From Xiphophorus maculatus (lineage: Eukaryota > Chordata > Actinopteri > Cyprinodontiformes > Poeciliidae), in the NCBI RefSeq assembly GCF_002775205.1, contig NC_036445.1:1198802-1262801 (forward strand): 64,000 nucleotides of DNA, in the 5' to 3' direction. The translations under genes and the position numbers were made by a program. A model generated the notes under the pieces. The model made no database searches. It had not been told where the DNA came from and worked only from the letters and a program-made list of their open reading frames with translations. Positions 1 through 61,571 of this stretch are shown one piece after another (position 1 is the first letter of the stretch; every line of letters begins with the position of its first letter).

Positions 1-800
1 AAAATCTATAAAAGAAGATGCACCTTTTAATGCATCACAAAATTATCTTATCCAGACTAAGTAACATAACATGTAACATTTTACATTTTAGACGTATAGT
101 TAATTCAGACTGAGACATTTTCCTCATTTGTCCTGTCCATTAGTCTTTGCTGTACATCCAAAAGAAAATACTCCATATCTGATTTGCAGACATACCATCT
201 CCTGGTTTGACTGCTGGAGGAAAGGCTTCTACATAGACATCCTCTGACGGACTTTGCAGGCTTTCGTAACGAACTGGTTCTGCTTCCTCTAAAGACAAAA
301 ATACAAACACATCTGGAGCTCACTTTCAGATTTACACACAATTAATTTAAACACCTGAGCACTATCTCCTGTGCTAATCCACTAAATATCTTCCTCACCT
401 TGAGTTATCACCTCCAGCTCACCTGTTCCCTCCTCTTCATTGCTTTGTGGGCTCTCTGTGGGGATCTCCTGCATCTCCATGGCTGCCTTTTGGTTTAATT
501 CCCTAAATTCTTATTCACCCAGAGAGTTTAAGGTCTCTAACAATGAAGGTTATGTAACTTTTTTAATGTTTAAACACAAATGAAGAATGATGCTAAGTAG
601 CAAATATGTACAGGTCAAATTGGTTATAAAGAAAAAGAACAGCTCCTTATGTCCAGTCAACGTTTGACTCATTTCAAAGAAGACTCATCACTTCCCCTTA
701 GACATTTCTTTTTCTTTTATTTAATTCCGCCCTTCCCCTAAACCACATGTATAAAATGGACAAATAGCTTTTGGGGTTTGAACTTGCCTCACCTTTTAGC
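1..800. repeat. Left copy of a tandem segmental duplication (partner 7810-8620)
   Basis: The 5' exons, intron and upstream sequence of the left lectin gene align with 7810-8620. Shared anchors are 'tgcatcacaaa' near 33 and 7848, the 93-bp exon, the first exon, 'gaaggttatgtaact' near 545 and 8348, and 'ggggtttgaacttgcctca' near 772 and 8584. Noncoding sequence is recognisable but clearly diverged, so the duplication is not very recent. Confidence 0.8.
196..480 (-). CDS. C-type lectin receptor paralogue, 5' coding exons only (ITIM-type tail)
   Basis: Two exons of a minus-strand gene that runs off the left edge. Exon 1 (480 down to 399) starts MEMQEIPTESPQSNEEEG and ends at a GT donor. Exon 2 (288 to 196, 93 bp) encodes EEAEPVRYESLQSPSEDVY and ends at a GT donor at 195. 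Both exons match those of the complete lectin gene at 3463-8284: the same 93-bp second exon, and a first exon shorter by two codons. The encoded part is the cytoplasmic N-terminus of a type II receptor. VRYESL fits the ITIM consensus (I/V/L/S-x-Y-x-x-L/V), so an inhibitory role is plausible. The membrane and lectin exons are outside the window, so the lectin assignment rests on similarity to the neighbour. Confident as a coding paralogue, less so on function. Confidence 0.75.
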
Positions 801-2094
801 TCACTTGTAAGCAGTGCAATGTGTGATAATAATCTAGGTTTTTTTATTCAGAGGAAAGACTTGGAGAAGAGAAACCTTTTAAAATGCTATAAAATCATTT
901 ACCTCCTTGGGTTTTATTTTTAATTTTTACCACATAAAAAACTCAAGTTCCGGGAGATATTTTGTTATACATAATGAAGAACTGTGAAATGGAAGGCATT
1001 GTTTTTGAAATGTATTGCAATTAAATATCTGCAAAGTATTATGTGTGTCTGTTCAGCTCTTTTCTGTCCAATACCTTGAAGTAAATGTTTTTTTTTTTTT
1101 ATAACATGCAAAGCAATATAAAGAAAACTGCAAATCAAGAGCCCATCTGACAATATGACATCATGACACAGAGTAAAAAATCTTTAAAAGAAATACGGTA
1201 TGTCCTTCTCGTTAGGAGCAAAGTTATTAACATATTTTAACATATTAAGATGATCTAAAAGGCAATGCATATCAGCTGCTCCAGATGCACATCACAACAA
1301 TCAATGCAATATAAATAATTAGTTTTGTTTAATAAAGTATCAATCCTGCAACAATTAGTGGCACCCCTTAAACATTTATATACAATAAATGTAAGGAAGC
1401 ACTGCTTTTTCAATTTAAACTTTACACTGATCTGGTCTAATATTCTCAACATTGAATTTTTGTTTCTCATTAACCATAATCATCCATATTAACAGAAATA
1501 AACCCATTAAATGCATCAATTCATGTAATAAATTTACGGTATGTAACGGTTCCATTTTAAATTAAAATTTTATTTATTGGTATTACTTAATCGTTCAATG
1601 AATTTATTGTGATGCACATGTATTAGTTTTGTTCTTCCTCTAAATATTTATAGACAAGTTCATTCCTTAGGAAGCTGACTCAGAATATGTAGATGAAGTT
1701 ATATGAAGCCATCATTTGCTATAATTTTCCCTTTTTTTCATTTGCTTATCTTCAAATTATTCACTGTTTTCAGTGGGGGTTTTCCGCAACTTGCATGTAA
1801 ACAAACTGAGCACTGATGCTCACTGTATTTTTTTTCCCATCACTGATGCAAAAGCAAAAAATATATATATATTTTCTGCTGTTGTTTGTAATGTTTTCCC
1901 CAGAATAAACGATGGGTCCTTGGTGCTGCTACTGTGTGTGTTCAGAGCTTGCGAGATGCTAGAAGGAAGTTGAGTTGATGGCGCCATGTCTGGTTTTGGC
2001 CGGTGCAATGTCATGTTCTTCGCTTGCAGAAACCAAAACCCTCAGCTATTTGTGGTGTCTGACATTTATAAGAAGTCAAGTTTAAGAGTCGGGC

Positions 2095-2210
2095 CTTGAT
2101 GAGAAACCCTACATGTGGCAAAAAATAAACACCCTGAACACACCATCCCAAGACTGAAACATGGTAGTGGCAGCATCGTCCTGTGGGAACATGGTAGAGA
2201 TGTATTGAAG
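2095..2210 (+). mobile_element. Tc1/mariner-like transposase remnant
   Basis: The stretch 'acatgtggcaaaaaataaac' followed by 'ctgaacacaccatc' and 'gaaacatggtagtggcagca' corresponds to the part of Tc1-like transposase that normally reads HT-PTVKHGGGS-LWG. Only about 110 bp are recognisable and no intact frame is left, so this is an old fragment without ends. Confidence 0.6.
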
Positions 2211-3462: not shown

Positions 3463-6400
3463 TCAGAACTGAAGCTGACAGATGAAGTAGGTGGTGGATT
3501 GACAGGAAGCTCTGTCCCAGTTCTTCTCAACTGGGCCGTCACTGTTCAGATAGGCACAGTCTCCGTTGTGTACAGCTTCAGTCCAATAGCTGCAAACATA
3601 AAAACAATTAATGTTAACGATTCAAGAAAATATAAAAAATACAAAGATTATTTTTAGAAAAGTGAAGTAATCTCTTTTGTTGCTCTTTTTACAGAGATTA
3701 AAAATAAAAGCCAAAGTTGAGTTGAGTTTTTTTTTCTATGGCGTTAAAGCTTATGTTTACTGTTTATTTATGTTGCAATTTTTATAAAAACTTTATAAAA
3801 ATAAAGAAATTTTCTGCTCTTTGTGAACAAAAAAAAAACAAGTCCTGCCCTCTATTAGCAGAGAAGTGTGTGTGTTGGGATGAATGGTGCAAAAATTACA
3901 TTGAGATACTTTGTCAGGGTGGAGATTATGACTTTTGCCGTGGTCTCTTTTTTTTTTTAAATTTTTTTTAACCTTAATAATTAACTGATCAGTTGGTACT
4001 GAATATAAATTTCTCTATAAACAGTGAATGCGTTCCCCCACCTGGTCAAATAATAATGAGCTAAATTGATTAATATCTGACTCCTAATATCAGCCATAGT
4101 AAAAACAGAAATCAACAAAAAGTGAGCAGAAATAACATAACAAAATTAAAATAATATTTAGCGATCGGTTGTTTAATAAATCATCTGAGTTGGTTATTTC
4201 TCAAGAATCACCTCTGCTGCAGCTTACTGCTGTTGACCCAGTTCCATGTGGAGTCTTCATGTTTCAGCCCAATCCAATATTTCAGTTCCCCTTTCTTTGT
4301 CAGAAAGTTCTAGAGGAAAATGTGTAGTAAGTGCTCAGATTTGCACAAAATGCACTGTGCAAAAATAATTATAACGTAACAAACTGCTAACGGTAATAAT
4401 GACCATCGTCACAAAGCAAACCTGAACATTCTGGCTGGAAACAATAGCCAGAGATCCTCCACTGGAGCTGCAGTTCTTCTGACTCTCGGACCAGGTCAGT
4501 CTGGTGGTGGACAGGAAAAAACAGGATTTGCCAAAGGTGAGCCAGCCGCTAGCGCACTGCCGGCAGGGAAGCTCTAAAAAATGAGACAGATGAGTTCAAG
4601 CAAAAAACATAAAAAAGAAAACTGTTTACTAAGACAAATGTGTAAATAGGTATATAGGTTTGAAAATGTATTTGTGATTACATGATGTAAATTGGCACAT
4701 ATAGTACTTATATTTATTGATGTTATTAATATACTTTTAATTTGTGGTATGTGTAGGTATCGTCCAAAATATTGGAGTTGTTCGACATTTCTTAAACTCT
4801 TAAAGTTTTGATCACAGTTTGGGTCAGCTCACTCTATTGAAATGTGACAGATTATAATCCTTGATCAAGACAAAATAACTCTGAGCATACGCTTAGTAGA
4901 CAGGATGAATTGGAGACAAATAACAAGAGACTGCAAGAAGATTACAGAAAATTACTTTAAGTCAGATTGTCAAAACAGGTTTGAAATGGCCCATAGCTAC
5001 AAAACGTCGCATAGCAGACGGTTCCCACAAGACTGCAAACTACAAAACATAGTGAAACAACTAGTGCGCAAACAAAAAAAATCTTCAACAGCTTTGTTCC
5101 CAAATTACCAGTTGAATAAAAACTTTAAATGACATCTGAATGTTGTTCATCTGCTATGGATAATGTTCAAGGTTTGAAACTTTGTCACACTTGTCTCCTT
5201 TTTTTATTTGTCAAGCACATGCTTTGATCTTCTGAACAAGACCTCTTTAGATAAAGGTAAGGCAATATATATCAATACATCAAATAAAATAACTGGCAAA
5301 GTATCAGATGTTTTTATTTGCTTATAGAAGGTTTTATTTATTCAGTATTTAGCATCTTTACACTTACTGTTGAACTGACTCTTTGGGAAGCGGTTCTGAC
5401 AGTCCTCAAAGCTGCATGTTGGATTTTGTTGGTCCCCGAATCTGCTGTTCCCTGAGCAGACTGTGGATCCAGTTTGGACTACAAAACAGAGGACAGTGGG
5501 AGGAGTTATGAGGGCAAGAACAGCACCCTCAGGCTGCAGCTCTGCAGCTAACAGCAGTCTGCTACAATCTGTTGTTACAAAACACTGGATCATCCTAAAG
5601 CATGTTAGGTTATCACTGTCTGCATAAATATAATGCCCTACATTACATCTAAGTCATCCTGAGGTGTGTGTTTTAGTTGCAGTAACGCATGGCGGTGCGT
5701 ACTCACGTTTCACACCGAGGACAAAAACCAGAATGAGAAGAATGAGGCAGATTATTGTGAGGATTAAACACAGCATCCGATAGAGTCCTGTTTTTCCTTC
5801 ATCCTGTTTGCCTGAAGAGGAAAACCAAATGTCAGTGAGCACTACAAAGACCACCATCAGAGTGGAAAAAAACACTTCACCCATTACCTTCCTCTCCCTC
5901 CAGCTCCACGGACAATTCTGCCTCATCTGGTTTCTCTTTTTTATCCTCAACATAGCTGCGAAAAAATTTGATGTACATGGAGAAAACTGTCCTTCTACTA
6001 AATATCAGGCACCTTGTTTAGTCTTTTCTGCTCTGGTTTCCTGCTCTGCTGACGCAAGCGTGCCCTCTGCTGAAGTTTAAAGAGACCCCCTCCCACTGCA
6101 GCACCATGACAACTCCCAGTAATTCCTTAATTATTCACATTGCACAGAGGTTGTCCTTGAATGCCCCCAAGCTTTAATCTTTATGTGTCTTCCTCTTTAA
6201 GAATGAGAATGTGCTTGTGTGTGTAAGAGAGACAGACAGTGAGAAAGTACAAAACCCAAACATGTCTCAACAAAGACGTTCTTCTCCAAAACAAGAGATA
6301 GGATTTCATTACAGGTCATATTAGATCTGTGTTCGGGTCACACTTATCATAATGAGTATATATCAATGACTTCTGTGAAGGAAAGTGATAAGAACAAGTT

Positions 6401-8284
6401 TGTGTTCAAAGTTTTGTATGCAGAAATTGGAAAACAGCTCAGGATGCTTTTGTTTTAGTTCTCCATTGCTTATTATGCCACTCTGCAGCCAAAAGCACTG
6501 GCTCACCCATCCAAATCCCTGAATACAAGCATTTCAATCACTTCCAAGGCCACTGGTGTATTAAACCCAGCACTTAGGTGTGCAGATTGCTTCTACAAAG
6601 AGTTGTGACAGAATGGGTCGCTCTCTGGAGCTCAGTGTATTCCAATGTGGTGCCATGATAAAATGCCACTTGTGGAATAAGTCCAGTCCTGAAATTTCCT
6701 CATCACTTCCACTGCATTATTACCACAAAGAGTCAACTGTTAGTAGTATTATAACAACACACAATAACAGTAACTCAGCTAGGAAGAGGTGGGGAATGGG
6801 TTCAGAGATACATTGACTCTGATCTTCTAAAGGTTTGTGCACAAAATCAGGTGCAAACTTGATCAAATGTGCAAAGCTGATCCAGAAACAATACGCATAA
6901 AGGATTGCGTCAGCAAAATGTGGACAGTAAATTAACGAGTTGTCTTCATGAATATGCAAAACAAATGCTGATCATCGGAAACTGCAAGGTATTGGGAGGA
7001 GGATATTAAAATGTACTGACTTACCGCCTTATTTATTAAACCAGAACCAGATTGCGGGTGCTGCTTTTGTGTCTATATTTAGTACATATAAAAAGCAGGT
7101 GTAAACGGCAGGCAAAAATCACTAACTGTACCAAGGAGGCAGCATAGTTGCAATGACAGAAGGCCTTATGGTGTTTATTTATTTTGTTATTTTTATTCAT
7201 ATAGTTGATTACAAAGGTAAATGGTAAGTCTTAAGAACATAACTATTATGCAACTTTTAATGTCTTAAGTGAAATCTGAAGTCATAAAATGTGAAGTCTG
7301 GGGAATTTCCTTTCTTCCTCATTTTGACAGCATTTATGCAAAGGTGTTACTCATCAGACTAAACCAAATACCTTACATTTAAAGTGCAAAGAATCCAAGT
7401 TGTCACTAATACTGCTGATTTTGCAAAAAAAAAAAAAATGCAATACCCTAGTCTTCAAGAAAACTTCCTTTTTAGCTTCTGACTGCCCACCAAGTAATTT
7501 TTGACACACTAAACAGATCTCTGATTAATCTAGATTCTTAAAAATAAAGTAATTTGATTATTATGAGAATTTTTATAATTTTTTGTGGTGCTTAGAGCAC
7601 ATTAGCATTGATTTAAGGCAAAGATGCAAATCTAACAGTTCAGTTTCATTAGACAAATACAACATGTGGATAAATAAAATGGCTTTATGCAGCAGTGTGA
7701 AACCACACGCTAGACACAAATGAACAAATTGTGGAGGACTACCTGGGGCTAGTACTACATTCTACAATGTATATTATTAAATAACATATATACATATATA
7801 TATTAAATAACAAAAGTTAAAGTGTTAAAGAAAATGCACCTATTGATGCATCACAAAGGGTGATCTAGACTGAATAACATGCTGAAACATGAGGAGTTGT
7901 GTTGCTTCGGCAGACATTTAGCTCAAAGGATAAACTCATTTGTCCTGTTAGTCAGTTTTATCTGTGCATTTTTTTATATAAATGCATACCTGTTCTTGAT
8001 TTGACTGTCGGATGTAAGGCTTCTACATAGACATTCTCCGATGGACTTTGCAGTTCTTCGTAATGGTCTGGTTCTGCTTCCTCTAAAGACAAAAATACAG
8101 ACAAATCTGGAGCTTGTGGAAATTCTTGCCATACAATTAATGTAAACACTGGAGCACAAAAATGCTCTCAAAGTAATGAATTCATCCCTTGCTCACCTTG
8201 AGTTATCACCTTCAGCATCGGCTCACCTGCTCCCTCCTCTCTGCTGCTTTTTGGGCTCTCTCTGGGGATCTCCTGCATCTCCAT
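3463..8284 (-). CDS. Type II transmembrane C-type lectin receptor, NK-receptor-like
   Basis: Exons (high to low): 8284-8197, 8082-7990, 5811-5707, 5478-5368, 4573-4422, 4309-4212, 3589-3463. Phases join to 774 nt, 257 aa. The cytoplasmic tail starts MEMQEIPRESPKSS and carries DHYEEL and VYVEAL. A hydrophobic segment at about residues 70-92 (MLCLILTIICLILLILVFVL) has no charged residue inside the membrane. A cysteine-containing neck follows, then a C-type lectin domain from about residue 133: CRQCASGWLTFGKSCFF, WSESQKNC, YWIGLKHEDSTWNWV, and a final C-x7-C pair ending YFICQLQF. The EPN/QPD calcium-sugar motif is absent and WND is replaced by NWD, so this is a non-classical domain of the kind found in NK receptors, likely binding protein or an atypical ligand. 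Acidic-x-Tyr-x-x-Leu (DHYEEL) resembles a hemITAM. An optional exon at 5888-5955 is listed separately. Could be annotated as CD209-like or CLEC4-like by automatic pipelines. Confidence 0.88.
5888..5955 (-). other. Possible optional exon of the lectin gene
   Basis: A minus-strand frame reads YVEDKKEKPDEAELSVELEG. It is bounded by a plausible acceptor (ttttcgcag at 5956) and a GT donor at 5887, directly before the membrane exon. With this acceptor the 68-bp length does not fit the phases on both sides, while skipping it gives a clean frame. An internal AG would restore phase but has a poor pyrimidine tract. It may be an alternative exon, the remnant of one, or part of another isoform. Confidence 0.4.
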
Positions 8285-8620
8285 GGCTGCCTCAGGTCTG
8301 ATCCCCTAACTTTCGATTTACTCAGAACGTCTATGGTCAGTTCACAATGAAGGTTATGTAACTTTCTCAGGATGCAGAAACAAACAGCTGACACCAAGTT
8401 GCGAATATCTAGATGTCAAAATCAGTATAAAGAGAAAGAAAGAAATAGTTCCTTATGTCCAGTCAATGTGTGACTCATTTGAGTGAAGCCCCATCACTTC
8501 CCCTTCAAAGATTTCTTTCTTTTTATTTATTTTTTATTGTGCCCTTCCCCTAAATCACATGTACAAAAAGTGACAAATAGCTTTGGGGTTTGAACTTGCC
8601 TCATCTCTAAGGTCCTTTGA
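7810..8620. repeat. Right copy of the tandem duplication (partner 1-800)
   Basis: Partner of the 1-800 block. It holds exons 1 and 2 of the complete lectin gene plus promoter-side sequence. Homology fades after about 8620, which suggests each paralogue kept roughly 300 bp of shared upstream sequence. Confidence 0.8.
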
Positions 8621-8659
8621 AACCAGTGTAACCTCAAGTGTCACTCAAAGAGTAGACTG

Positions 8660-9175: not shown

Positions 9176-9220
9176 CAACCAGTTGGAGGCTGCCAAAGAT
9201 TTGCAGCCTCCAACTGGTTG
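9176..9220. repeat. Perfect 18-bp inverted repeat with 9-bp loop
   Basis: CAACCAGTTGGAGGCTGC at 9176-9193 is followed after nine bases by its exact reverse complement at 9203-9220. The arms are too perfect for chance. It has no TIR-like flanks and is not followed by a T tract. Confidence 0.9.
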
Positions 9221-10193: not shown

Positions 10194-11825
10194 TCAGGCA
10201 CCGTACACGCTCTCGTTGCTGTATGTCATGTAAAGAAACAGGTCCTCCTCGTGGTGCTCCTGCAAAACAAGCACAGAATGATGCATTACTAGCATGAAAA
10301 TTGGTCAAATGGGAATTCTGCAGTCAAACAAGTTGAAACAGGAACAAAGCCAAAGGAGAGCCCATTTCTAGTTAGATTAAAAGATATAAAACAATGAGAA
10401 AACATTTTAACCTTCCAGACTTCTTTGTCTGTCACATTTAAATGTGTCAGATCACCAAAACTAATTTTGAAAGCATAATTTCGTTTAGAAAGGGAAAAAA
10501 AATTTTTATTAAAACCCCGGCCTGAAACATAGTCACCTTAAATCATGAATTAACTGAATAAAATGAATTTCATAACTTTGAATAATCACTTATTTTGAAA
10601 TGCTGGGTTCAGTTTTATTAATCCCAGCAGGCCTGTTGAATAAAGAACAGTCTTGACAACATGAAGGAGGCTAAAAGATCTCAAATAGCCACATGTCACG
10701 TCCCAAACCAAAGAAATGTTGGAACAGATTAGAAACGAATTCAAAAAAATCTGTCAGTTTAGAAAATGTAAAAATGTCGTTTACAAAAGGTGTAAGAATG
10801 GAGTCAACATAACACGTCTCTTATTTTCTACGAAACAACAAAAACTTGCAGCGTCTGATGCTGAAAGGCAGTGATCCATGTCAAACGTATTTTGTTCATG
10901 AGTGTCAAAGTTACTACATCCCATAGCTGCTGTTCCTCTACGCTGCTTCAGTTCACCTTCTATTGTTGTATTTTAGTGCCGTTTGTGGTCAAAGGCAGAT
11001 ATTTTAAAGTTGTGTAAAAGATGAACATAGTGAGCATTTTATGCTATTTGTTTTGGTTTAGAAACTAATTTATTCCTCCTTGTGGGAAAAGCCAGACATT
11101 TTTAGTGTTTTGAACTGAGGCATTGTGTGTGCAATCAACATCAGTTAAGATTCGGAAAAAGTAGAAGCAGAAATGGCTTTGGATGCATGTCACAAGGAGA
11201 ACGATCACATGAAACCTAGTTTCAGTCTGAGTTACCTCGTATACAGTTGAGAGCGGACAGCTGGATGGAGGGAGAGAGTTGTTGACAAAGAAGAAGAGCG
11301 CATCTTCTGGTCTCAAAGACAAACGCTGACGAATCAGAAAGCACAACTGGCCCACTAAAGAGAAAAAAAAAAAGAGGAAGGAGACGAAGAAGACGGTCAG
11401 CGAGGGTCGCAAACGTTTGTTTCGTTTAAAGTGAGAGGAAGTGAAAGAAAAATAACGTCAAAGTCAGCAATGTGGTTTTATTCATGTAGTTTGTGATTTA
11501 TGTTCTGCTCTCACCTGTTAAATCCGACGGCACCAGGTACTTCTTCTTGTCGAGCTCGGGAGCGCGTGACCTCGACGCCCTCTCCACAATGATCTGAAAA
11601 TTAATGGACACAAATTAGAAAAGCAACTCGCTGTGTTTACTTTTCAATAATAATGAAAATGATACTCCTAACAACTGACATCATCCGTTCGATCAAGATT
11701 GAACGGATGCAAAGGTGATTATCAGTTTTACTCACCGGTATCTTGTCAGGATGTTTGGCTCGAACTCTCTCTCCTTCTGCTCTCCTCACCTCCAGCGGTA
11801 CAGAGCGCTGATATTGACTTCCCAT
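10194..11825 (-). CDS. GABARAP-family Atg8-like ubiquitin-fold protein
   Basis: Four coding exons: 11825-11736, 11593-11515, 11354-11236, 10259-10194. They join to 354 nt, 117 aa, the same length as vertebrate GABARAP. Landmarks: basic N-terminal helix region ([20 protein letters not shown]), [42 protein letters not shown], and C-terminal YSNESVYGA. In the family the C-terminal glycine is exposed by ATG4 cleavage and conjugated to phosphatidylethanolamine during autophagosome formation; here one alanine follows the glycine. The start ATG lies directly after a splice acceptor at the end of a run of about 24 T's on the minus strand, and a noncoding first exon ends at a donor near 14170. The protein is divergent from GABARAP and GABARAPL1 at the N-terminus and around [14 protein letters not shown]. 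In humans GABARAPL1 sits beside the KLR/OLR1 lectins, which matches the neighbouring lectin genes. Subfamily identity is not settled. Confidence 0.92.
10590..10760 (+). mobile_element. Tc1-like DNA transposon fragment, family A
   Basis: The 'cctgttgaat' / 'cttgacaacatgaaggaggc' / 'taaaagatctca' / 'ccaaagaaat' series is shared in order with 16170-16510 and 51750-51990. It corresponds to the 5' leader and first codons of a teleost Tc1-like transposase gene. It lies in the last intron of the GABARAP-like gene and is degraded. Confidence 0.5.
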
Positions 11826-15937: not shown

Positions 15938-18900
15938 TCAGACAGCAGCTTTAGCCTTTGTCAGCGTGAGAGCATCCAACAGGTTGCGCTTCTTGACTTT
16001 GTCGTTGCTTATGACTTGCAAATGGGAATTGGGCACCCATCCAAAATGCTGGTCCGACAGTCTAATCCCCTCTATCCAATCTGCAGAGAAAAACAATCTA
16101 GTGTGAACAAACTAGCAAAATAATCTCACGTTACAGTTCTGTGAAGAAGCATTTGCTTGTTTATGAAACTCTTCGATTGGGATTAAACACAATGTTTGAG
16201 AAGTTGACAAGGCCTCATTACTCATTACCAACCTGTGGCATCAAGAAGTCGCTTAAGTAAAACCTGTCTGACAACTCTAAGTAGGCTAAAAGATCTCCAA
16301 AAGCAGATCGAGCCTGATCTTGAGATACAAAACAACTTACACCTGAAGAGGAAATAGAAATGTCCAGAAAGATATTTCCTACATTTTTGACTAAGATCCA
16401 AAGTAATTTTCTTAAATTAAATTTGTTTGAATTTCTGAGAAATTAAAACGTGGAAAAAACAGAAGAAATCTGAAGTTGACCAAATACTTTTTCACAGCAC
16501 CGTATGCACATATCTTTTCAATCCTAAGAAATGCAATTCATCAACATGGGGAAAGAAAGCAATTGTCTTACTGTCTCCGCTGTCTTTGTGAACCAGAATA
16601 ATGTCTGCTTTTTCTACAGACATCTCATCCGGCTGCTGAGCAATGTAAGCTCTGATACACTGCATCTGTGCTAAATCTGGAGGAAGAGCAAATAAATAAT
16701 GTTAAATAACTTAATAATTGGGGACAAGATTACAATGAATATCCATGTTTAATTAAAATTGGTCTGTTTTTTTTTTTCTTGTTTTTGTATTTACGTTTTA
16801 TGACCTCATACTATTGCATAATGAGAAAGCAGCAGAATCTACACCTTAACACATCCAGTTTTACTCAACTAACAGACTACTTTAATTATCTTACACAAAA
16901 GATCCAGGGCTCTCATAGTTTATTTCACTGTGATACCTAACAGGTAAAAAGATAAATGGAAATCTCCATTTGGGACACAAATACTATGTTTCACAGTATT
17001 ATTAGCATCTGCACAATTTTAGAATTGCTCCATTGATTTATTTAATTGTTTTGCTTCCGTCTTTTTATTTTCTTTACTTAGTTTAACTCTACCCACAGTA
17101 TATTACACAACCTGGGCAAAAGTGAATCCCAGTTATCCCTCTGTATTTTTGCTACACTACATACAACATACGGTTGGTTACTAATGAACTCCCTTTGGGC
17201 AACGTGCAAATTACTGACACCAACACTCATGAAAAATGGGTGTACCACATACAATGAGTAACTGTTTATCCACTAGAGGGCAGCAAAATGCAATGTCAGT
17301 TATACTGACTGAAGCAAAAGTTTGAATTTTCAATGGCATAATCCATGTTATTAAATAAGCACTATTAGTTATTATTATTCTCAATTAAAGTCATGCACAA
17401 TCTAAGAGGCTTAATTAGTTGAATGTAAATATTTTTAGTTGATGAAGATACCAGTGGGTCCTTTTGTGTTTGTCAGTAGATTTTATGCCTCTTTTACAAT
17501 TGGTATCAGCCTGAAAAGGGGGAAGGGACGGGGTTCTTTACATCACACGTTTCTATATTAATTCATTGTATTTACATTATGATTCATATCGAATATTCTG
17601 AAATCACATTTGAAAATCCAAAATGTTTATTCAATTCTCATAAAAATGTACTACTTCATACATCTCATTAAATTGGAATATGTGATCCAGTGAGGCTTGT
17701 TTGTCTAATTAAAAGTACCTTTTGGAAATAACATCCTTCCTGATATTAAACGAACAAATCTCTACTAAAAATGTTTTATATATTGATCTAATCCCCTAAG
17801 AAATCAGTTACTGTGTTTTCATTAGCTGTCAGAAAACAAAATCATTCAAATTAGCAGAATAAAAGGCTTGAAAGTATTAATCTGCATGTAATCAATCTAT
17901 AAAATCTGCTACAGTTAGTGGACTGAGTTTCTGAAATACATAAACTTTTCAAATCTATTGAGATGTACCTGTAATTGAGGAATGAATGCAGTTGTGGATA
18001 AAACTTACTTTCTGCAGTAGAAAAATCAACTACAGGACAACTCCTGGAGAGGGCAGATATCCAGCGTAGCTTATCACTCCTGATTGGGAAAATGTAGTGA
18101 ATAATGCATAAATTATCAAACTTTAATGGTGTGGAAACCAAACAGATATCCTCTGTGCAATCTTTTACTTTGTCTCAGTTCTTAGCAGCAGGGAATTCTG
18201 TGATAAGTGTAAGCGGAAGCTGTTCTTCTGCAGAGTCAGGATTTTGACACGGAAGTCTTCTGTACGCAGTTCCTCCACAGGACAGTGATCGATGACGGTA
18301 AACTTTCCCCCTCTGCGAAAGGCACACAGCAAAAATCACATAAGTAAGGCAGTGGAAGAGAAACGACGTGAACAACTAAACACATGATGAACACAAGCAT
18401 CAGATATGAGGATAACAGGCTACAGTAGATGGTGATGGTGATCAAATTTGATGACAACACAAAATTATCTGTTTGCTGACTCACTCTTTTTGTATTGATA
18501 CTAGCAGGTAGTCATTGAAGAGATGTAAGTAAATGGTTCTCTCTGCTTGCTTTAGAGAGTCCATCAGTTGAGTGATGGAACCTTCTTTCACCAGCCGGCG
18601 TTTTTGACTGATGAGAGGAAGAGTCTGAAACATAACCAGGAATTAAAGACAATTAGTTTGCCACTAATAGGGTCCTAATTTAAGTTAGTCAGATGTTATG
18701 TGAATTTGCAAAGTATTCATAATGCGTGGCTCGATGCTTCAAAATAAAACCTTTTTATGACAAACTGGACCAAGCAAGAAAAACATGTTCAACAACAACT
18801 GAGGAATTTGTCTAGCAGACGTAAGTGCGGTAATCTTTTCTCATGTTAAGTTGCTAACTAGCAAATAAAGTTGAACTCCCAGAAAGAGTAATGTAGTTTT

Positions 18901-21900
18901 CAACGAATTTGCTACAAATGCATCCTGTACTCTATAAAAAGACATTTTGCAGGGTAAACATAAATAATAAAAAATGTATTCACTACTATTTGTTTGTATA
19001 TATTATTAACTATTCATCCAGGGTTAAATTCCAATAACATTTGCTAGTTTATTTTTGTAACAAATGCTATCTAAATATCTTGATTCAAATTTAACCACCA
19101 TTATCATTTGTCGTCCCACCTGTCCAGCAGAGAATGGCAAGGTTAATTAGTTTTTTGTTTGTTTGTGTTATGAAGGAATAAATCAAATTTGCAAAAAAAA
19201 AAGAGGTGTTGAAAGACTTTTGATTAATATGTAGTTAATAAAAAGTAAACTGGTTGGAATTTAATACATTTAACTGAACATATTTTAGCTGTTTAACATG
19301 CGTATTTTCAATCAGAAATACTACAATATAAAAATAGGCACCAAAACTCATGTGAAGACACTTCACCTTAAGCTTCTCATAGATCTGTCTATGGGTTTAT
19401 GAATGTAAAAGCTGAGTAAATGGTTGCTCACCTTGCAATCCACAAATTCCACTTTTCCACTTAGCGATACCAAAGACTCGATGGTTTTCATTTCAGCGAT
19501 GCTGTCGTTGCTCTCTTGAATGATCTAAAACAGAAAGAAAAAACAAGGACGTTTGCACTTTTACTTCCTAAAGTTAAATGCAGCAACTATTAACTGTGTA
19601 AAGATACTGTGAAGGCAGGGAGGTTTTGTACCCTTTCCAAAAGTTTTAAAGCTTTGATGGTGTTTTCTGCTTCCACTGTTCCAGGGGTTGTTCTTTTTAC
19701 AATATTCTACACAGAAAAGACATGTGGATCAGGTAAAAAAAAAAAGGTAAAATATTTTGATTAAATGTGCCAAATAATCACTGGTGTTTGTTTACCTGGA
19801 CCAGCAGCTTAATTCTGGTGATCCTTTGGAACGGAAGCACCAAGAAGGAACGGAGAGGAAGCCTCTGACAAACATGACTCTTCTCCAAGTTGTCCACAAT
19901 CCGCTTGAAGTGAGGATTGTCATTCCTAAACGCAGCACAGAAAAAATATCATTAGTTAGATTTTATGGGATATCTATCTCGAAAAGAAGAAATTAAAATC
20001 CAAACTTTTTACATGAGTCTTTGGTATGTGGCATCCTGATATGACTGGTTGGTGAGGTAGGGCACATAAACCTTTCTGAAGCGTCGACATTGCTGAGCAA
20101 TAATGTCACACACTGTAAAGTGCAAAACATCAGATTCCACACGCTCTTCCAGCTTTGCTAAAAATCTGAAAAGGACATTATAAAGAAACAACCTTTACCT
20201 TTATGCTCTCATAATATTTTTTCTCATCAACAAGCGGGGGTTACACAATCAATATTATGCACACCTCATCAGTGAATGCACCATTTAACAAGAATAGATG
20301 GATGGAAAATTTGATTGACAACATTGTTCAAAAAGTCCAACCTGTGGCTGATGGCCCGAACTTCAGTCAGACGGGAGAACAGCCAGTTCTTGTCCTGAGT
20401 TGTCAGCAGCTTCTCTAGCTCTTTATTCTTGACAAAATTTCCAACAACAATGTCCAAACTTCTGCAGTATGAGGCCTCTGAGGTCAAAACTTCAAATCTC
20501 ACCTTGTATGCAAAAATAAAATAAAACAGGGGAAAACATGGAACTGATTACAAGAAGTAAATGATTGCTTGTATTTATATAGCTAAAATGACTAATCAAC
20601 CTTCTTTTTTTTAAATATGTACTGGTAAAAGCTGATGCAATCAAAGAAATGCAACTCCAAGTAATGCAGTGAAATTTTCTAGCACAGCTAATAAAACAGT
20701 GGATCAGTTGAGGGGTTATTCTGCAATGTGGCAAGCCAGTATGATTTGTGTGAAATCAGGAGTTTGAGGTGTGGTGCAACAAGTATGAACAAGCACAAGG
20801 AAATTAATCCTAAAAAGAAAAGAAGCAGAGTCTCCAATTACTGCCAGAGCACAAAAGTATATTAGAGTGGGAAAAATAGATAAATAAACAGCAGGGAGTA
20901 AAACAAATCAATCATATTACTATTAATACATTACGTTTTCCCAAGAACAATGTTCTTTTTGAAAACATAATGTTACTTTCCTCTAAATGACGTGTAGATC
21001 TGGTTGAAAAGGTTAAGTTTGGATAGGACATACAGAGGCATCTAAAGAAATGACAGTTTTGCAGATGTTTCTTATTTTATTTCAGTAATTTGATTCCAAA
21101 GTTGAAATATAAATATTAAATTGGCTTTCTGCAACACCAGTTAATTTGCAGTATTCCCTGTGACTGTGTAAGATACAACATGTAATATATTTCTATGTAT
21201 ACATGTGATATGGATACTTATGTGTCTGGATTAGAAAACTGTTATTTTCATTGACTTTTTGTAATATTCTGTTACATTTCTTCATTAGCGATGATGCACA
21301 GTCATTAATCAGACAAAAATATACAGTTGAAATATTTAACTGTGTGTATTGATAAATTAGTGACTATTTTAATAGAATTACAAAAAATAGTCCCCATAGT
21401 ATTTTTATAAACAAAACCGAACATGAATTATTTGAATTGCGAGAAAATAAAAATTTTGAGAAATCAGCTTACTATTTTGAAAGAGGTCATTCTAATGTCA
21501 AAAATAAAGTTTAGTTTTTGTAATCATAAAATTTAGCTGACCAACTGAAGAGGGCAGGAGAGAAAAATAAGCTTTCTAAGTTAAAGTCCAATGATCAGAC
21601 GGTAATTTAATTGTTGAAAGGCAGCTGCTGTATGAGTTAGAAAACTCACATTTTAAACATTTGTCTGGTTTGAATAATGAACATGACTTGTGAGTCTCAA
21701 GAGTCTTTATGAAAAAATGAGAGAGGCTGTTTGGAGTTTCCAGTTTCTTGAGTCAGTGGTTTCCAGTAAATTTCCAGAGATTGAAGAGCAGATTATTGTT
21801 TGCTAATACAATTCTTGAACAAGTCCAGATAAAATGTTCACATGCTAAAGAGAATGAAGGGAAAATTAAAGATTATTAGAAACTATCTTCCTAAATGTTG

Positions 21901-40756: not shown

Positions 40757-43700
40757 ATGGAATCAGGCGAAGACCAAAACACAAGCAGCACAAACGGAAA
40801 CCCTCAGACGAGTGGGAACTCCCGGGCACCCCAGATTGCCCGCATGTCTTTGTATGAGAGACAAGCTGTACAGGTGAGGGATTGCTTATAAACTGTGAAA
40901 ATGTCCATTATTATTTAAATTAACCCTTTGAATTAATCTTGAAGATGTTTATGTCAATGTCTTGTTTTTTTTTTGTCTAGGCTCTCCAAGCTCTGCAGAG
41001 ACAGCCTAATGCAGCCCAGTACTTCCAGCAGCTCATGCTGCAGCAGCAGATCAATACGGCCCAGCTACAAAACTTTGCTGTGCAACAGGTGCAGTTATGG
41101 CAGAAATCATTGTATAAGAAAACTTCCCCATAAAAGTTTTTTATTATTATTATTTCTTCAGCTTATCTTGTTTTATGTGCTGATTATGGACGCTTTATAG
41201 CTTTTTCTTTGCACAGCATTTTGCTATTTATGTCTTTAAATTAGCTACATTACATTTAACCCGATTTTTACTTACTTAGCTTTACTTTCCCTTTTTAAAC
41301 CAGGCCACACTTGCAGCTAGTCGCCAGTCCAATACACCAAGTAACAGCATTTCGCCGGCTCCCACCACTGTAAGTTTATTCGTTGAAAATTTTAAGGATT
41401 AATCTTCTACCAGGTTTCAGGATTTTATAGAAACCTATATTTTTTATGCTTCCTGCAGGTTAATTTAAGCACTACATCTGCCGGTGGGACTATGAGCAGT
41501 CCCCGTCCACACGGTCCGGCTACGTCTGCAACAACAACAGCTCTCAACCAGTCAGTGCTGTTGGGTGGAAACTCTGCAGGACAGGGACAGATGTATCTTA
41601 GGGTGAGTTTAAAATGCACACACATGTTACCAATAACTAGATTTATGTGTTCTATGTTCAGTTCGTATCTAACGGGAGAGTTAAGCCTCACTCTGACGCA
41701 TAATTTTCTTCCTGCTGCTGTAAATTATGGACCTATCTTCCTGAAGACATGAGGGCAGCTGATAAAATGAAAAGTAAACAAAAAATGTTCTTGTTAAGTT
41801 TGGCTTTCAGTTTAAGTTGATAGTTTTTTTTGATACTGATAGTGATGCAACCCAGGATTGTGGGGTGTTTAACCGACGCAGAGAAACAATGTCAGCAATG
41901 TGGTCATTTTTCACAGTGTTAAAGCAGTAGGGATATTTATATATATACATATTGTATCATAATGATATGGGCAGGTGTTATTTCAATCTATGCTCTAAGC
42001 CAGAGAAAACTGGTTACTCCAGCACTTTCTATGGCATCCCATCCAAAGTAATCAGTAGGAACAGTGTGATGGAAAATTTCAGTGCTAAACTGTGAGTCCT
42101 ACAAGTTCTTCATCATGTGGTTAGAAGACAGTCTGATCATATCTTCTTGTCTTTGTGTAGGTGAACCGCTCTCTAAGGAATCCGCTTACCTCTCAGCTCA
42201 TCTTCATGCCTGGCGGGACGACCGCTGCCGTAGCGACGGTAGCTCAGACACAAACACAACCCCAGCAGCAGCATGACACTGCTTCCACCACTCCATGTGC
42301 CCAGGCTGACATCGACCAGGTCTGATCTATTTAAAGATAAGTTTCAAGCGCCACAGCTAAGGGAAAACGCTGTTTCACCATAACTGTCTGGTCTCTCTGC
42401 TTCTAAGGTGCAGAACCTGGCTCTACACTGTGCCTCTAACGCCAAAGCCGTCGCTGTAAAGGCTGAAACTGTAGAGAGGAAGGATGCCGGCAGTTTTCCT
42501 CTCGCTCAGCAGCAGCAGCAGACTTTCTCTCAGCAGCAGCAGATGGCTAAAGCCAGCTTTAATCAGCCGTCTGCCTCCAGCACTCTGACTGTGAAGACTG
42601 GGAACCAGGCTGCCATGACTGTGGCCCCTGCAGCCTCTGTGGCCCCGTCCTCCTCCTCCTCATCCCCAGCGCTCCCCCTCTCTCAGCTCCTCCTGGCCCC
42701 GTCTTCCCCCGTCATCCTGGTGCCCACTTCAAATGTCACTACCTCCACCCAGGGCTACCCAATCGGTTCTGTGGCCCCGAAGGCCACCATGAACCCACAG
42801 ACTCTGGTGGTGCAGCCCCTTCAGCAGGCCAACGCTAACATGGAAAAGGGTCCCGTCCCGATACAACCCAAGACGGCTCAGGGACACCGCTTACCCGTTC
42901 AGCTATCGCCTCGGCAGCCGCCTCCCATACTGCCAGCGCCACCAAGCAACAGTCAGGCTAACGTCGGGGGTCATAACCCACCACACATCCCGGTCCAGCT
43001 GGTGGGAGCCAGGCAGGGCTTGGCAGGAAATGCACAAGCTGTGGCTTTGGCTCAGGCGCGGAGCAACGCGGCTCTGGAGAGTCCATCTGGTGTGGCGGTT
43101 AGCTCAGTCCCCAGCAGTGCTGCCATGGTAGGATCAGAATGAACTGCTCTGTTCAAGCTTAAAAAAGCGATAACTGGTGTCTCATAATGTATTTTTTTAT
43201 TCACATGCTTTCAGACAAAGCCGTTGGTCGGCTCTCTGAAGAGAAAATCTGAGAGTGATGCGCCAAATGAGATGTTGGAAGCATCAGATTCTGCCCCCAT
43301 GAAGGACGCAGCTCCTCCTTTATCTCCGGCCCCCACAAAGGACTTGGGTAATACGAGTTCACCATCTATTAATTTGAATTTCTCTCAACTTTATATCGTC
43401 CATTTATGGCTGCAACTGACAATTATTTTTGCAACTGATCAATCTGTTGATTATTCAGACGATTAATTGATTAATTGCCACATTCTGCAATTTTTTCATT
43501 GAACTACTTAAGATTTTTCTATATAATGTTTGAAATACATTTACATATGGAAATAAACAGATTATTTATTTCATTTTTTAAAATGAGAAAATAAACATTT
43601 AATTGCCTAAAATGCAAAGGAATAGCATTCCTTTAGTGTATATAAAAAATGCCTCTTGAAGACTTTGGGGTAAACATTTTAACACATAAAGGTGTTATTA

Positions 43701-46642
43701 CCTTAAATCAAAGATAATAACAAAATTTGAAATATTTTGTTCAAATTTGGCTTAATTACTGCTCTGAATATGTTGTTTTTTTCATCAAGTGGTATTTTAT
43801 TGCGTTTGTACACTTCAGTTAAGAATTAGTCGTTTGTTAAATTAGTTGAAAAATTACTTCAATAATTGATTAATCATGATTCACTTATTAATTGTTTCAG
43901 TCTTGCTTCCATTTCTCCTCAGCTCCTGCTGTTGATGCCACGTTCTCCGCACCTCCGACGTTGTCCTTGCCTCTGCCCTTGTCCAGAGGCGGTCATGGGG
44001 ACAAAGTTCCTCAGGCGGTGGTCAAACCTCAAGTCCTCACTCATCTCATCGAGGGCTTTGTTATTCAAGAGGGAGCTGAGCCCTTCCCTGTAAGCGATCC
44101 CTGCCAGATCTGCATGTTAAAACTTTATGGTGAAAGGTGCAGGTTTCCGACTCAGTTCTGGAAATTATGTAAAAATCTGGAATTTGGCTTGAATGTGTTT
44201 GTATTTTCAGATTTTATTCCCTTCCTATATGTCTAAGTAGTGTGTCCTTCCTTCTATCCTCCATTTGTTTGTATTATTTTTTCATTTTTCTTATCCTTCC
44301 TATGTCCTAGCCTATTTCCTCCCTCCCTTATGTCATCTCTTTTTGTCCTTCGTTTCTACATCCCTCGTGTCTTTCCATTCTTTTTTCCTCTTGTCCCTCT
44401 TGTTTAATTCTTCATTGTGTCCTTTCTCCCTCTGTTTTTTTTCTCTTCCATACTGTTCTTTATAGTGCTCTTTCTTTTCCTTCCTCCCAATCTTCCCTGC
44501 ATCCTATCTCTATTCCTTGCTTGTCTTTATTTCCAATATTTTGTCATTCCTCCCATTTGTCCTCTCTTTGTTTCTTCTTTATTAATTGCTTCCATGTGTC
44601 ATCTTTCCTTGAACCTCCTCTCTCTTCTTCTACTATGTTTCCTTCTCCTTTTACCCTTGTGTCCTTGCTTTTTAATCTCCCTCCTTGTTGTTTTACCTTG
44701 ATTCTTAGCAATATTTCACTGCATATCAAATTTATAGTGAAAGTTTGTATATTTTAAAACAAATGTTAGTGAGTTTTTTTGTTTGTGTTTGGTCTTTATA
44801 AAACATATGTAGGAATACTAGAAGTAAGTTTCTTGCTAACTTCTCTGTTGTTTGGCAGGTTGCTGGACTCCTCAAAGACAGAGATTTTGCTCTGGTTGGC
44901 CGCACAGAGAACGGTCCTCCATGTAAGTAAAGATTTATTTATTTACTGTGGTTTACTTTCTCCTTTTTACGGGCCGGCGCTCTGAATATTTTCTTTTTAT
45001 CTCTCAGTGTTGAAATGTGAGTACTGTGGATGCTTTGCTCCTGCCAGCCAGTTCAGGGGATCAAAGAGGTTCTGTTCAAACACTTGTGCAAAGAGGTAGA
45101 CTTTCATTCCTCATAAAGATACTGTTACACTGCCTTGCAAAAGTGTTCATTCCCCAAAGCTCCAGTGTGATTTACTGGAGCTGCTGCAGACTGACCCTCT
45201 TGATCTTCAGGTATAATGTAAGCTGCAGCCAGCACTACAAGTCCAGCAGAGGGAGGAGTGGTGGGGGGCCGCCGCTACCTTCGAACCCCACAGAAAGCTC
45301 TGCTAAACGCAGAGGTCCATCCCGACGGGGGAGTTCAAATAGCACCTACAGTAAAGTATCAAGCAAGCATCTTTCTGTCAAGGTAAGATTGTTTTTTTTA
45401 CTACTTTTAAATAAAACAAAAGCAAAGTCATAGTTCACATTTTGAAGCACCAAATTATTTTAAAAAATCTATATATGATAGGAAAAACTTGCCATCTAGA
45501 TCTATTAGAAGCTCTTTCGGTTCACTCTGAGAACCTTGTGCTAAAGAAGATTTGAACCCTGGGATTTGGATTATTCCCATATATTTAGTTAAAGCCTTTA
45601 AATTTTCAGTCTTTACATTACATTTTTTTTCAATACATTTATATAAAGTTAGAAAAACTGACTGAAAAGTCTTTAAAATCTTGAAGTTCAAAGAGGTTTG
45701 AATACTTGATATGTGAAAAGTGTGAACATACACTCTCAAGAAACATTAATTAAGCCTGTCAGTGTAAGCAATTCATCAATTATTAGTAGAATAAATTAAA
45801 AGGGGAGTGATCATTTACATTCATAGACATCATAATTTCATTTATGGTTTTGGTTTTAACAAAACATTTCTGTTTTATGTAGTTTTTGGTTGTTGTGTTT
45901 TTTGGATGTTTTCCAGTTCCATTGTGAAGTTTTCTTTACAAAATTAAAGTTTGTTGGACGTTTAGAGGTTGAACTTGCATTATTACGCCGTTATCAAAGC
46001 AATACTTCAAAATAGTCTCAAAACAATATTATCGTTTATTGTAATACATTCTGGAACAATTTATCGTTCGGCAAAATTTGTTATCATGACAGCCCTAACA
46101 TTACTATTTTAATGTTTAGTTTATAGCTTTATGTTTTAACCTCTGCTGTCTCCCTCGTAGTGCCACTCAGAGTCCAGTCGCTCAGAAGACCTGTCAAGTG
46201 AGGGGGAGGAAGAGGAGGATGACTCTTCCTCGCTGTCCAGAAGCTCGTTACGCTCGTGCTCCAGAGCTGAGCACAGCGCTCCTCCCTCCGACAGCTCGGC
46301 ACCTGGAAGTCTCCTGATCGAAGGGGCCAACTTCCTGTCCGCGACTCCGGCTCAGTGGAGCGTGGAAGAAGTCTGCAAGTTCATCTCCTCGCTTCAAGGT
46401 TAGCAGCCAAATCGCGGTTTGCTTCCGATTGCTTAAATACATTCAGGTCATCTGTTCTCACTCGTCTCTTTGGCTTCCTGCTGGGTTTAGGTTGCGAGGA
46501 GCTGGCGACCCAGTTTCTGTCGCAGGAAATAGATGGACAGGCTCTGCTGCTGCTGAGAGAAGACCACCTAATCTCCACCATGAACATTAAACTGGGTCCG
46601 GCTCTGAAGATCTGTGCCTCAATCAACAGTCTGCGCGAGTGA
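40757..46642 (+). CDS. phc1: Polyhomeotic-like protein 1, PRC1 subunit
   Basis: Thirteen coding exons: 40757-40873, 40981-41088, 41304-41369, 41459-41602, 42161-42319, 42408-43127, 43215-43347, 43923-44089, 44859-44922, 45008-45095, 45211-45382, 46161-46398, 46491-46642. Phases join throughout; 2328 nt, 775 aa. The N-terminus (MESGEDQNTSSTNGNPQTSG, ARMSLYERQAVQALQALQRQ) and Gln-rich tracts match PHC1. The HD1 motif (VKPQVLTHLIEGFVIQEGAE) is at about residues 515-538. The FCS zinc finger (CEYCGCFAPASQF, FCSNTCAKRYNVSC) is at 560-593. An acidic Ser-rich linker precedes a C-terminal SAM domain (WSVEEVCKFISSLQ to INSLRE, about 710-775). In PRC1 the SAM polymerises and the zinc finger binds nucleic acid, together supporting chromatin compaction and Hox silencing. 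It is shorter than human PHC1 (about 1000 aa), mainly in the Gln/Pro/Ser middle. phc1 rather than phc2/3 is supported by adjacency to m6pr. Confidence 0.93.
43405..43880. mobile_element. Nonautonomous DNA transposon (hAT-like MITE) in phc1 intron
   Basis: The left edge 'ggctgcaactgacaattatt' with 'gattaattgattaattgcc' and the right edge 'ttgaaaaattacttcaataa' with 'ttgattaatcatgattc' match, in opposite senses, the ends of a common teleost MITE. There is no coding capacity. The exact ends and target duplication are not clear. Confidence 0.5.
44225..44705 (+). repeat. Polypyrimidine tract in phc1 intron
   Basis: Nearly 500 bp dominated by C and T on the plus strand, built from degenerate 'ccttcc/tcttcc/ctccct' words, within the intron between 44089 and 44859. 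It gives long spurious open frames rich in Ser, Leu and Phe on this strand. Confidence 0.7.
45975..46105. mobile_element. Short MITE-like repeat in phc1 intron
   Basis: 'attatcgtttattgtaatac', 'ggaacaatttatcgttcggc' and 'ttatcatgacagccctaac' are the characteristic end of a frequent teleost nonautonomous DNA element. Only this end is recognisable. Confidence 0.45.
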
Positions 46643-47869: not shown

Positions 47870-47884
47870 CATTACTGGAACTGA

Positions 47885-48555: not shown

Positions 48556-55058
<6,503 letters not shown>

Positions 55059-58324: not shown

Positions 58325-61300
58325 TCAAAGCTTGGAGGCAGAGCTGCCTGGGTTAGGCCCCAACCACTTTTCTCCTGCAACAAACAAAAACAAATTACCT
58401 TTTAGAATACAATGCATGTATCTGATTCTGTAGACATATGCAAAATCAGAAACAAATGAGACCATCTTTTCAGACTCTAAACAGCTGGAGTATGGAAACA
58501 CCTAATCATACAAAATCCCAAGATTTTAGTGAATGGCAAATTCATCCGGAATCTGCATTTTTTTAAATGAGTGCAATGTTAAAGTTCAGTTAATGTCCTA
58601 TGGCACATTAAGTCATACTGTGTAAGTAAAGGTACCTTATGCCTCATATTTTTTCTAAATAGTTACAGTCATCCTGGCCATCATAATTTTGTGTGTTTAT
58701 TAGCCGCTTTAAACCCTCCATTCTCCTGAAGTGATTACACCACAAACAATTACAGGGATTTTATGAACAAGAGTTATGTGCAAATATTGGAATTCCTTTT
58801 GGCATTGTGGGCCAAAATTAAACACACAGGCTCAACTATATACACTCCCTTTAATATATGTATATATCTGACTTAGCAAATTTTATCTCAACTACAAACA
58901 TCAGTTTTAATATATTTTAAAACTGTTCTGCACAAAAAAAGCAGAGTTTGTTTAAATTGGTTGGTTTCCAGGCTCAATCCTGTATTTTAAACATAATCCA
59001 TACATATTTAGCATACCGAGCTTTACAAAAAATAAATTAGCTTCGCAAAAAATTAATTTCAATGTGAAATTTATGCCTAAAAGTTGAATCCATGAATGGA
59101 AACCAAACAATTTAAAGGAGCTCCAAAATTTCTGATGAGAAATACTCAAGTAGGATTATGCCAGACGTTTGTTGTTGAATGTTAAGGGAAAGTTGCTCAG
59201 GGGCATTTAAGCAAACATTAGTGGGGTGTGTGTCTGTATATCTGATTTTATATTTATAATTTTGCACACAAACATCTCCAACCTAATACGCAATTATAGG
59301 TTCGATTTAAAAAAACGTGCTGAAGTTATGTTATCATTCCACCCTAAAAATGGTTCAAATAAATAATTCAAATCCAAAATTCCTACATTCAAGTCAATGA
59401 TGATTTGACATATATACAGTATTTTCTGTGTTTCTCACCAATGCAGTTGGCCATGAGCTCAAATCTGTCAGATCCAAAAAACATCTCGGGTTTTCCATCA
59501 ATATGACAAATCAGCATTGGGAAACCAAATGCCTGGGGGAAAAAAAATCACAAGTATTGTTTCTTTAAAATAAACTAATTTCTCTTCAAAATACAAAGAA
59601 AGCAAAAGCACCACCAACCCCATACTTGAGTGCCTCCTCTGTTGAGTGTTTAAGCTTATCTTTGATCTCCTGCGAGGTGCACAACTTTAGCGCTTTTTCA
59701 ATCTCACTGTCACTCAGTCCTGCTTTTTTGGCTGCCTGGGGGAAAGAAAAAAAACACAACAGATAGAAATGAATGCAACTCAAAATCTAATCAGAAATGG
59801 GACCAATGCGTGTGTTTTTAAGCAACAACCTCAGAGAAGGATTCGGGTTTAGTGGCGTCTTTGTCCTCACTCCAGATCCTCCTCCACAGCTCCCTGGAAA
59901 CCTGCTCCACCTGCTTGTCTCCACCTTGCTCCATATGCTGCACTGCTGTCACGAACCGCATCGCAGACAAAGTTCCTAAAAAGAAAAGAAATATTCTGTC
60001 TTATTTATCAAAAAATTCCTGATAAATCACAGATTGTTTTTACTGCACTGTTTAAATAACAGCTAGCAATTAAATCAAGTTGAGTTTTCTGGCTCTTTAT
60101 TTTATCATCTTTTAGCTCTTGAAATTGGTTTTACTGCATCTCCTCACATTGCTAATGCTAATTGCTAATTTTAGAAAATAACTTCTTTTAATTTTTTGTA
60201 CAACCTGGGAAAGAAATATTGACTTCATTTTGCAGCAACAGATACATTCACGTGATTGTATTTTTACTCCAATGGAACTTGGACAGGGTTTAGATACGAA
60301 TCAGACACTCCTCCATTTTTATTGCTTCGAAGGTCTTTGTCAACATCCCAATGCTGAGTAAGAAATGTTGGTTTCAAACTCTCTTATATCCACAACCAAT
60401 TAGGGGTCCTCATACTGGAGGACCCACTCCTTATCCTTTAAGTTTGCAGGGCTTCTGTCACACGTAGAACCATTTCATCCTCACCATTGGACTGCATAAA
60501 GCTTAAGTGATCCAGTGCTGCATTTCTTTTCCCCCACAATGATCAAAGGTATTAAAATAGGACACTGCATTTAGATAATGATAGACAGAATTAAAGTTGC
60601 CTTAAGTTACCCCTCTTGGTTACTTTGGTTTATGTTTTATTAGTTATTTATGTTTTTTACATGTGTAAAAATGGCATTTGAACATACAATGAAATTAATA
60701 AAAGTCTGAAAATGTAAATGTTTCCATCTTTTCCTTCCTTTTCCAAACCTGAAAACCAGGTTCTTCACATTCTTTACATTTGAGTGCAAAAGTAATAATC
60801 TTGACCTGAAATATGACATAATGCTGCACAATATATGGAACGGCAGTCATCACTGCAGTATTATGTGTGAATAATTGCAATCTTAAAGGAATGCTGGGAT
60901 GCAATCATTTCTAGGAAATAATATTTCAAGCTTTTTGTTGCTGCGTTGTGGCTTTTGCACTTTGCTGACCTGTCTGTGCAACTGTAACTTACTAAGTCCT
61001 ACTTATTTAGTTAGATACTATAACATTTGAGAGACTGACTAAATGTAAGTACCTCAGTAGCTACCTGTCTGATCAGAGCCCAACAGAGTACCCATGCTGA
61101 TAGTGTTTACCTTTTTTGAACATGACCTCAAATGGGTCAGTAGGTGGGTGTAAAGGGACGTCAAAGTACTTGGACGCGCGGTGAAGATCTTTAGTCATGT
61201 AGGAAAATTTGTTGGGAACTAAACCAGGAGGCTTGTTTCCTGTCATAAAAGACACAGGTTATTTTCCAGTTCATTCCACGAGGATATAAACATGCACATG

Positions 61301-61571
61301 GCCTTTAATTTACACTTTCTAGGTCCTTCATGCTCACTGACCTGCTCCATGCATGATGCCTCCGAGAAACGCAGGACGAAACTTCAGGTCGATGTTCCAC
61401 ACCTTTCTGTAGCGACAGATGACCTGGGAATACAATGCATAGTTTTAAACACCCCAAGATACGGACTGGACCTGCAGGACGAGTGAGAAGGAAGACACAA
61501 ACCTCAAACCCGAGCCAGGAGTAAGGTGAGACCACATCATAGAACAGCTCCACCACTTTCTTTGAGGTCAT
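58325..61571 (-). CDS. gstk1: Glutathione S-transferase kappa 1
   Basis: Seven coding exons: 61571-61503, 61423-61342, 61239-61111, 59975-59830, 59735-59619, 59532-59439, 58374-58325; 687 nt, 228 aa, phases all consistent (human is 226 aa). It begins MTSKKVVELFYDVVSPYSWL; the serine of SPYSW is the glutathione-activating residue in the kappa class. It continues with the DsbA-like thioredoxin fold and helical insert (KFRPAFLGGIMHGAGNKPPG, MTKDLHRASKYFDVPLH, LSDSEIEKALKLC) and closes with FGSDRFELMANCIGEKWLGP. The last residues are SKL, a canonical type 1 peroxisomal targeting signal, so peroxisomal import is expected. The enzyme conjugates or reduces small electrophiles and peroxides with glutathione. 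The gene lies in the 7q34 region in humans, as does ARHGEF5. Confidence 0.96.

Follow-up and report, generated by a model that had tools for sequence, protein, structure and literature searches.

A 64-kb stretch of Xiphophorus maculatus DNA (contig NC_036445.1; ~38% GC), here called the window, carries two loci for C-type-lectin receptors directly adjoining a GABARAP-family gene; STYK1, M6PR and PHC1 lie near them, all within 55 kb. The reading we favour, with a probability of roughly 0.6, is that these lectins are leukocyte receptors and that their array descends from ancestral lectins beside GABARAPL1. From left to right the gene order is lectin B (-), lectin A (-), GABARAP-family (-), ARHGEF5-type RhoGEF (-), M6PR (+), PHC1 (+), STYK1 (-) and GSTK1 (-). 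Every family of the set syntenic with the natural killer (NK) gene complex (lectins, GABARAP family, STYK1, M6PR, PHC1) is present within 62 kb. By a rough union bound, the chance that three (four) of the six non-lectin genes fall in one human interval is 2.1e-3 (1.3e-5) for an interval of 60 genes and 8.4e-3 (1.0e-4) for one of 120 genes.

Genes were detected by reading frames and codon bias, and then by Pfam, by searching the PDB with the lectin and GABARAP protein sequences, and by tblastn. The tblastn queries were human proteins, and the Pfam and PDB evidence is independent of these. There were 264 scored open reading frame (ORF) candidates, 161 of them outside clear exons; 65 of these were scanned with Pfam, which gives the families without naming the source ORF, and ten proteins or ORFs were scanned separately.

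Gene neighbourhood of the lectin array

The original prediction held that an association of lectins, GABARAP, STYK1, M6PR and PHC1 is ancient. The positional part of this claim is well supported, and partly already in print, while the orthology of the lectins to NK-complex receptors is not established. We drew the gene order of other species from published statements rather than from figures. In cattle GABARAPL1 and STYK1 are given as the flanking genes of the KLR cluster (PMC5350243), and A2M, A2ML1, KLRG1, M6PR and PHC1 are placed around shared markers, with A2M, A2ML1, KLRG1 and PHC1 on cattle chromosome BTA5 (PMC10300016). Gibel carp and zebrafish chr16 are described as sharing a conserved block, styk1-phc1-atn1-mlf2-ptpn6, and the gibel carp region was also compared with gar LG26 (PMC8662705). 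In spotted gar, four KLRG1-like lectins are reported between GABARAPL1 and APOBEC (PMC5002281). That the lectins of the window have the neighbours of the mammalian NK receptor cluster suggests that this gene neighbourhood is old. Further background came from passages on the NK complex of birds, on an expression quantitative trait locus for M6PR/KLRG1 near PHC1, and from a table that places CLEC2L, CLEC5A and CD72 among the NK lectins (PMC8813856, PMC10247546, PMC8949112, PMC7911577).

The existence of true NK-complex lectins in fish was described as an open question in 2004, when the group V status of the cichlid genes was disputed (PMC514892). NK-complex-like clusters had been claimed by others in cichlids (PMC1193534, PMC3322459), and in 2016 the complex was suggested to be present in gar and "possibly lost in teleost fish", GABARAPL1 and A2M of zebrafish being reported from two different chromosomes (PMC5002281). 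The adjacency of lectins and a GABARAP gene in a teleost speaks against that suggestion of loss; retention in teleosts was claimed earlier on other grounds. Lectin-domain trees have failed to settle the question for fish, and lectins that adjoin a GABARAP gene, in 55 kb that also hold STYK1, M6PR and PHC1, offer a precise gene-order anchor for it. In a literature search of open-licence papers we did not meet the exact gene order of the window. A2M, TMEM52B and KLRG1 did not turn up in the Pfam scans, which covered part of the ORFs of this short window and included no search by name.

We consider it improbable that the lectins moved in later and that their closeness to GABARAP, STYK1, M6PR and PHC1 is a coincidence. 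Such mobility has a precedent in birds, where lectin receptor genes of this kind are reported on different chromosomes in different species; against it, lectins adjoin GABARAPL1 in gar (PMC5002281), and zebrafish chr16, reported to share partial synteny with the NK receptor cluster of mammals, carries two lectins (PMC6400144).

The window also contains two genes, an ARHGEF5-type gene and GSTK1, whose human counterparts are on 7q34-q35. The original prediction took them as the mark of a fusion of 7q34-type genes to the NK neighbourhood. A fusion private to this fish was rejected, GSTK1 as its mark included: gibel carp chromosome CgA16 carries gstk1 together with foxj2, within the comparison to zebrafish chr16 (PMC8662705).

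Structure and predicted function of the lectin genes

Lectin gene A (3463-8284, - strand) is complete. Its predicted gene model has seven exons, two for the cytoplasmic tail (8284-8197 and 8082-7990), one for the transmembrane segment (5811-5707), one for the stalk (5478-5368) and three for the C-type-lectin-like domain (CTLD; 4573-4422, 4309-4212 and 3589-3463). All six introns are GT-AG and a single frame of 257 aa runs through the model. The predicted product is a type II membrane protein with a tail of ~73 residues, a transmembrane segment that is uncharged and has a mean hydropathy of 3.4, a stalk containing three cysteines, and one C-terminal CTLD (Pfam Lectin_C, 3e-16; also matched in the PDB), which is the architecture of group V. 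The CTLD has the six cysteines that mark the long form and one more just upstream of the domain, and their pairing can be proposed from the sequence. It has no EPN or QPD, and WDR stands at the WND position; this loss of the calcium- and sugar-binding motifs is likewise a group V trait.

Assignment of the tail exons at 8.3-8.0 kb to another gene was set aside in view of their in-phase join to the transmembrane exon and of the GT-AG junctions. A candidate alternative first exon (5978-5888, - strand, beginning MYIKFF), predicted to be in phase with the transmembrane exon, leaves some doubt on the tail-exon assignment and would give a tail without a YxxL motif.

The second gene, lectin B, was recognised because the stretch 191-819 aligns to 7985-8631 of lectin A (76% identity over 657 bp). 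The 5′ ends of the two lectin genes are tandemly duplicated. Two lectin genes had been noted, and two loci are indeed present, with only lectin A complete: at its left edge the window holds the first two coding exons of lectin B (480-399 and 288-196, - strand), and the rest of that gene lies to the left of the window. The sole lectin domain inside the window is that of lectin A. The tail of lectin B carries one consensus immunoreceptor tyrosine-based inhibitory motif (ITIM), VRYESL, which fits the pattern (I/L/V/S/T)xYxx(I/L/V).

The array most likely derives from lectins that adjoined GABARAPL1 before the split of ray-finned and lobe-finned fish. Its receptors would be leukocyte surface proteins, probably disulphide-linked dimers, that signal through the tail tyrosine; their ligand, a protein or something else, would be bound without use of the classical calcium-dependent sugar site. 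Judging by its tail motif, lectin B may be inhibitory, with the ITIM acting via SHP-1 or SHP-2. Lectin A has the acidic DHYEEL where lectin B has its ITIM; it may couple differently, perhaps in the manner of receptors with a hemITAM (half of an immunoreceptor tyrosine-based activation motif). The SHP-1 gene ptpn6 is listed in the conserved styk1-phc1 block (PMC8662705).

Affinities of the lectin A domain

In the PDB search with lectin A, the best 60 of 199 matches were headed by multi-domain receptors. Of the chains matched in a single stretch, the highest scores were those of a C-type-lectin protein with no given name (61.8 bits), Mincle (61.3), CD69 (60.9) and CLEC2D (59.7); NKG2D reached 67 bits over a two-copy chain, or 36 per copy. 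When lectin A was compared by BLAST with 18 human domains, the top match, CLEC4E (70.5 bits), was followed by CD69 (65.5), CLEC2D (64.3) and CLEC5A and CLEC6A (60.1 each).

We built four trees, each holding 17 to 19 CTLDs. The first used all rows, the second left out CD72, the third left out CD72 and KLRB1 together with the calcium-loop columns, and the fourth had CLEC2L replacing CD72. The fish domain joined CD69/CLEC2D, alone or along with further group V rows, in all four, including the one from which the calcium-loop columns had been removed. The joining branches had support values of 88/90, 83/92, 53/86 and 45/89. Grouping of the fish domain with group V was not rejected in any tree (approximately unbiased (AU) test, p = 0.41, 0.50, 0.39 and 0.30). 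In the tree with all rows, p was 0.44 for the fish domain with CD69/CLEC2D, 0.36 with CLEC5A and 0.11 with APLEC; in the tree containing CLEC2L, it was 0.57 with CD69/CLEC2D/CLEC2L. The trees thus lean weakly to the CD69/CLEC2/CLEC5A side, and membership of lectin A in group V is favoured, not shown.

A number of results weigh against the reading we favour. The top BLAST match, CLEC4E, belongs to group II, and the NK receptors proper, KLRG1 (42.4 bits, 23% identity) and KLRB1 (37.7), came lowest in the list. No joining branch reached the 95/80 mark, the program warned of long branches, and grouping of the fish domain with group II was not rejected (AU p = 0.12, 0.10, 0.20 and 0.23 in the four trees). 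A pattern check of the lectin A tail found no consensus ITIM, DHYEEL standing at the matching position. PHC1 and M6PR are convergent in human and both on the + strand here, so the local order is not identical. The GABARAP-family protein is as close to human GABARAP as to GABARAPL1 (72 of 117 residues identical to either, 62%), and at the 16 positions where those two differ it follows GABARAPL1 at four, GABARAP at four and neither at eight. From published work, zebrafish is stated to have no obvious KLRB1 or CLEC2 genes (PMC5002281), and the candidate CTLDs of carp are reported not to have clustered with group V (PMC6400144).

Several of these points fit a different reading, possible in our view and rather unlikely, in which the neighbourhood is conserved and the lectins are a fish-specific expansion of group II (DC-SIGN/Mincle-like) that lost its calcium site independently; the lectins would then be neighbours, not orthologues, of the NK-complex receptors. 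The CLEC4E match, the AU result for group II and the carp candidates all favour it, as does the unstable placement of the cichlid cKLR genes, which fell among fugu group II genes on one tree (Zelensky and Gready, PMC514892). It is opposed by the joining of the fish domain to group V rows in every tree, also without the calcium-loop columns. Moreover, a Mincle-like match alone would not break positional homology: human APLEC, also of group II, is likewise on 12p13, and grouping of the fish domain with APLEC gave p = 0.11 in the tree with all rows.

Two human lectins of NK type, CLEC5A and CLEC2L, lie outside the NK complex on 7q34. In the tree containing CLEC2L, the neighbours of the fish lectin were CD69, CLEC2D, CLEC2L and CLEC5A. 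A further idea, which we regard as doubtful, is that the genes of the NK complex and those of 7q34 formed one neighbourhood in the bony-vertebrate ancestor. CLEC5A and CLEC2L would then be its relics, and the fish lectins would go back to an ancestor shared by the two sets. This idea is built on the positions of the human genes and on weak trees, and we give it little credence. If true, teleosts kept the NK complex that was thought possibly lost, and there would be a testable reason for the presence of two human NK-type lectins on 7q34.

Neighbouring genes and comparison with known systems

The other genes named in the original prediction were recovered, ARHGEF5 as a RhoGEF/SH3 gene of that type. 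The GABARAP-family gene (10194-11825, - strand; Pfam ATG8, 6.5e-45) has four exons (11825-11736, 11593-11515, 11354-11236 and 10259-10194) and encodes 117 aa. It belongs, by its sequence, to the GABARAP/GABARAPL1 side rather than to GABARAPL2, to which 51 residues are identical; in the PDB search, made with a query containing one wrong residue, the GABARAP/GABARAPL1 pair scored 168 and 165 bits vs 110 for GABARAPL2. We call it GABARAPL1 by position only. The reading as a pseudogene was dropped in view of the 117 intact codons, the four spliced exons, and the retention of Gly116 and of 10 of 12 residues of the LC3-interacting region (LIR) pocket, with the changes I21V and F60L. Vertebrate GABARAP orthologues are usually >90% identical, and this gene is intact yet unusually divergent from both human proteins, which may reflect fast evolution within an immune-gene cluster.

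The RhoGEF/SH3 gene (~16495-28140, - strand, limits and splice sites approximate; Pfam RhoGEF, 2.3e-7) was found as predicted, and its long N-terminal exon suggests that it is probably ARHGEF5 rather than a sister gene. An Arg/Glu/Asp-rich open stretch of 1023 codons without a Pfam match (25069-28140, - strand) is probably its N-terminal part. M6PR (34149-35986, + strand) lies next to PHC1 (40757-46642, + strand). Pfam Man-6-P_recep was found in 4 of the 65 scanned ORFs (best 1.1e-20), and there were five exon matches to human M6PR. PHC1 has a SAM domain (1.9e-10) and several exon matches to human PHC1, the one protein among PHC1, PHC2 and PHC3 that was compared. STYK1 (~48589-54527, - strand, limits approximate) was identified by a kinase Pfam match and by five exon matches to the human protein. 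Its kinase segment (51070-51297, - strand) has HGN in place of the HRD-type Asp site and GLH at the place of DFG, and it looks like a pseudokinase. Between matched STYK1 exons lie a tandem repeat of the 22-bp type with AGACCGAGACC units (50084-50367) and an (AT)45 run (50718-50807). GSTK1 (58328-61559, - strand) was supported at 61559-59431 by a DSBA-like Pfam match and by tblastn with the human protein; the match of its last exon (58393-58328) is weak (E = 0.24). Searches of the window with Rfam and with ARAGORN gave no match.

Like the mammalian NK gene complex (human 12p13), the window has genes for type II C-type-lectin-like receptors in the vicinity of STYK1 and a GABARAP gene, and M6PR and PHC1 are not far off. 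It is far more compact than the human region, differs in order and orientation, and, unlike the human NK complex, interleaves the ARHGEF5-type and GSTK1 genes. The lectins directly adjoin a GABARAP gene as they are stated to do in spotted gar; the gar lectins are described as very similar to KLRG1 (PMC5002281), whereas the match of lectin A to KLRG1 is low, at 42.4 bits and 23% identity. The cichlid cKLR genes (Sato 2003 and Kikuno 2004, via PMC514892, PMC3322459 and PMC1193534), likened here by description only, are also clustered fish type II CTLD receptors without the canonical calcium and sugar residues, and those studies already claimed NK-complex-like genes in teleosts. The zebrafish chr16 lectins clec4c and sclra resemble ours in that their region shows partial synteny with the NK receptor cluster of mammals; that linkage rests on pex5, clstn3, lpcat3 and others, and the text of that source mentions none of GABARAPL1, STYK1, M6PR and PHC1 (PMC6400144).

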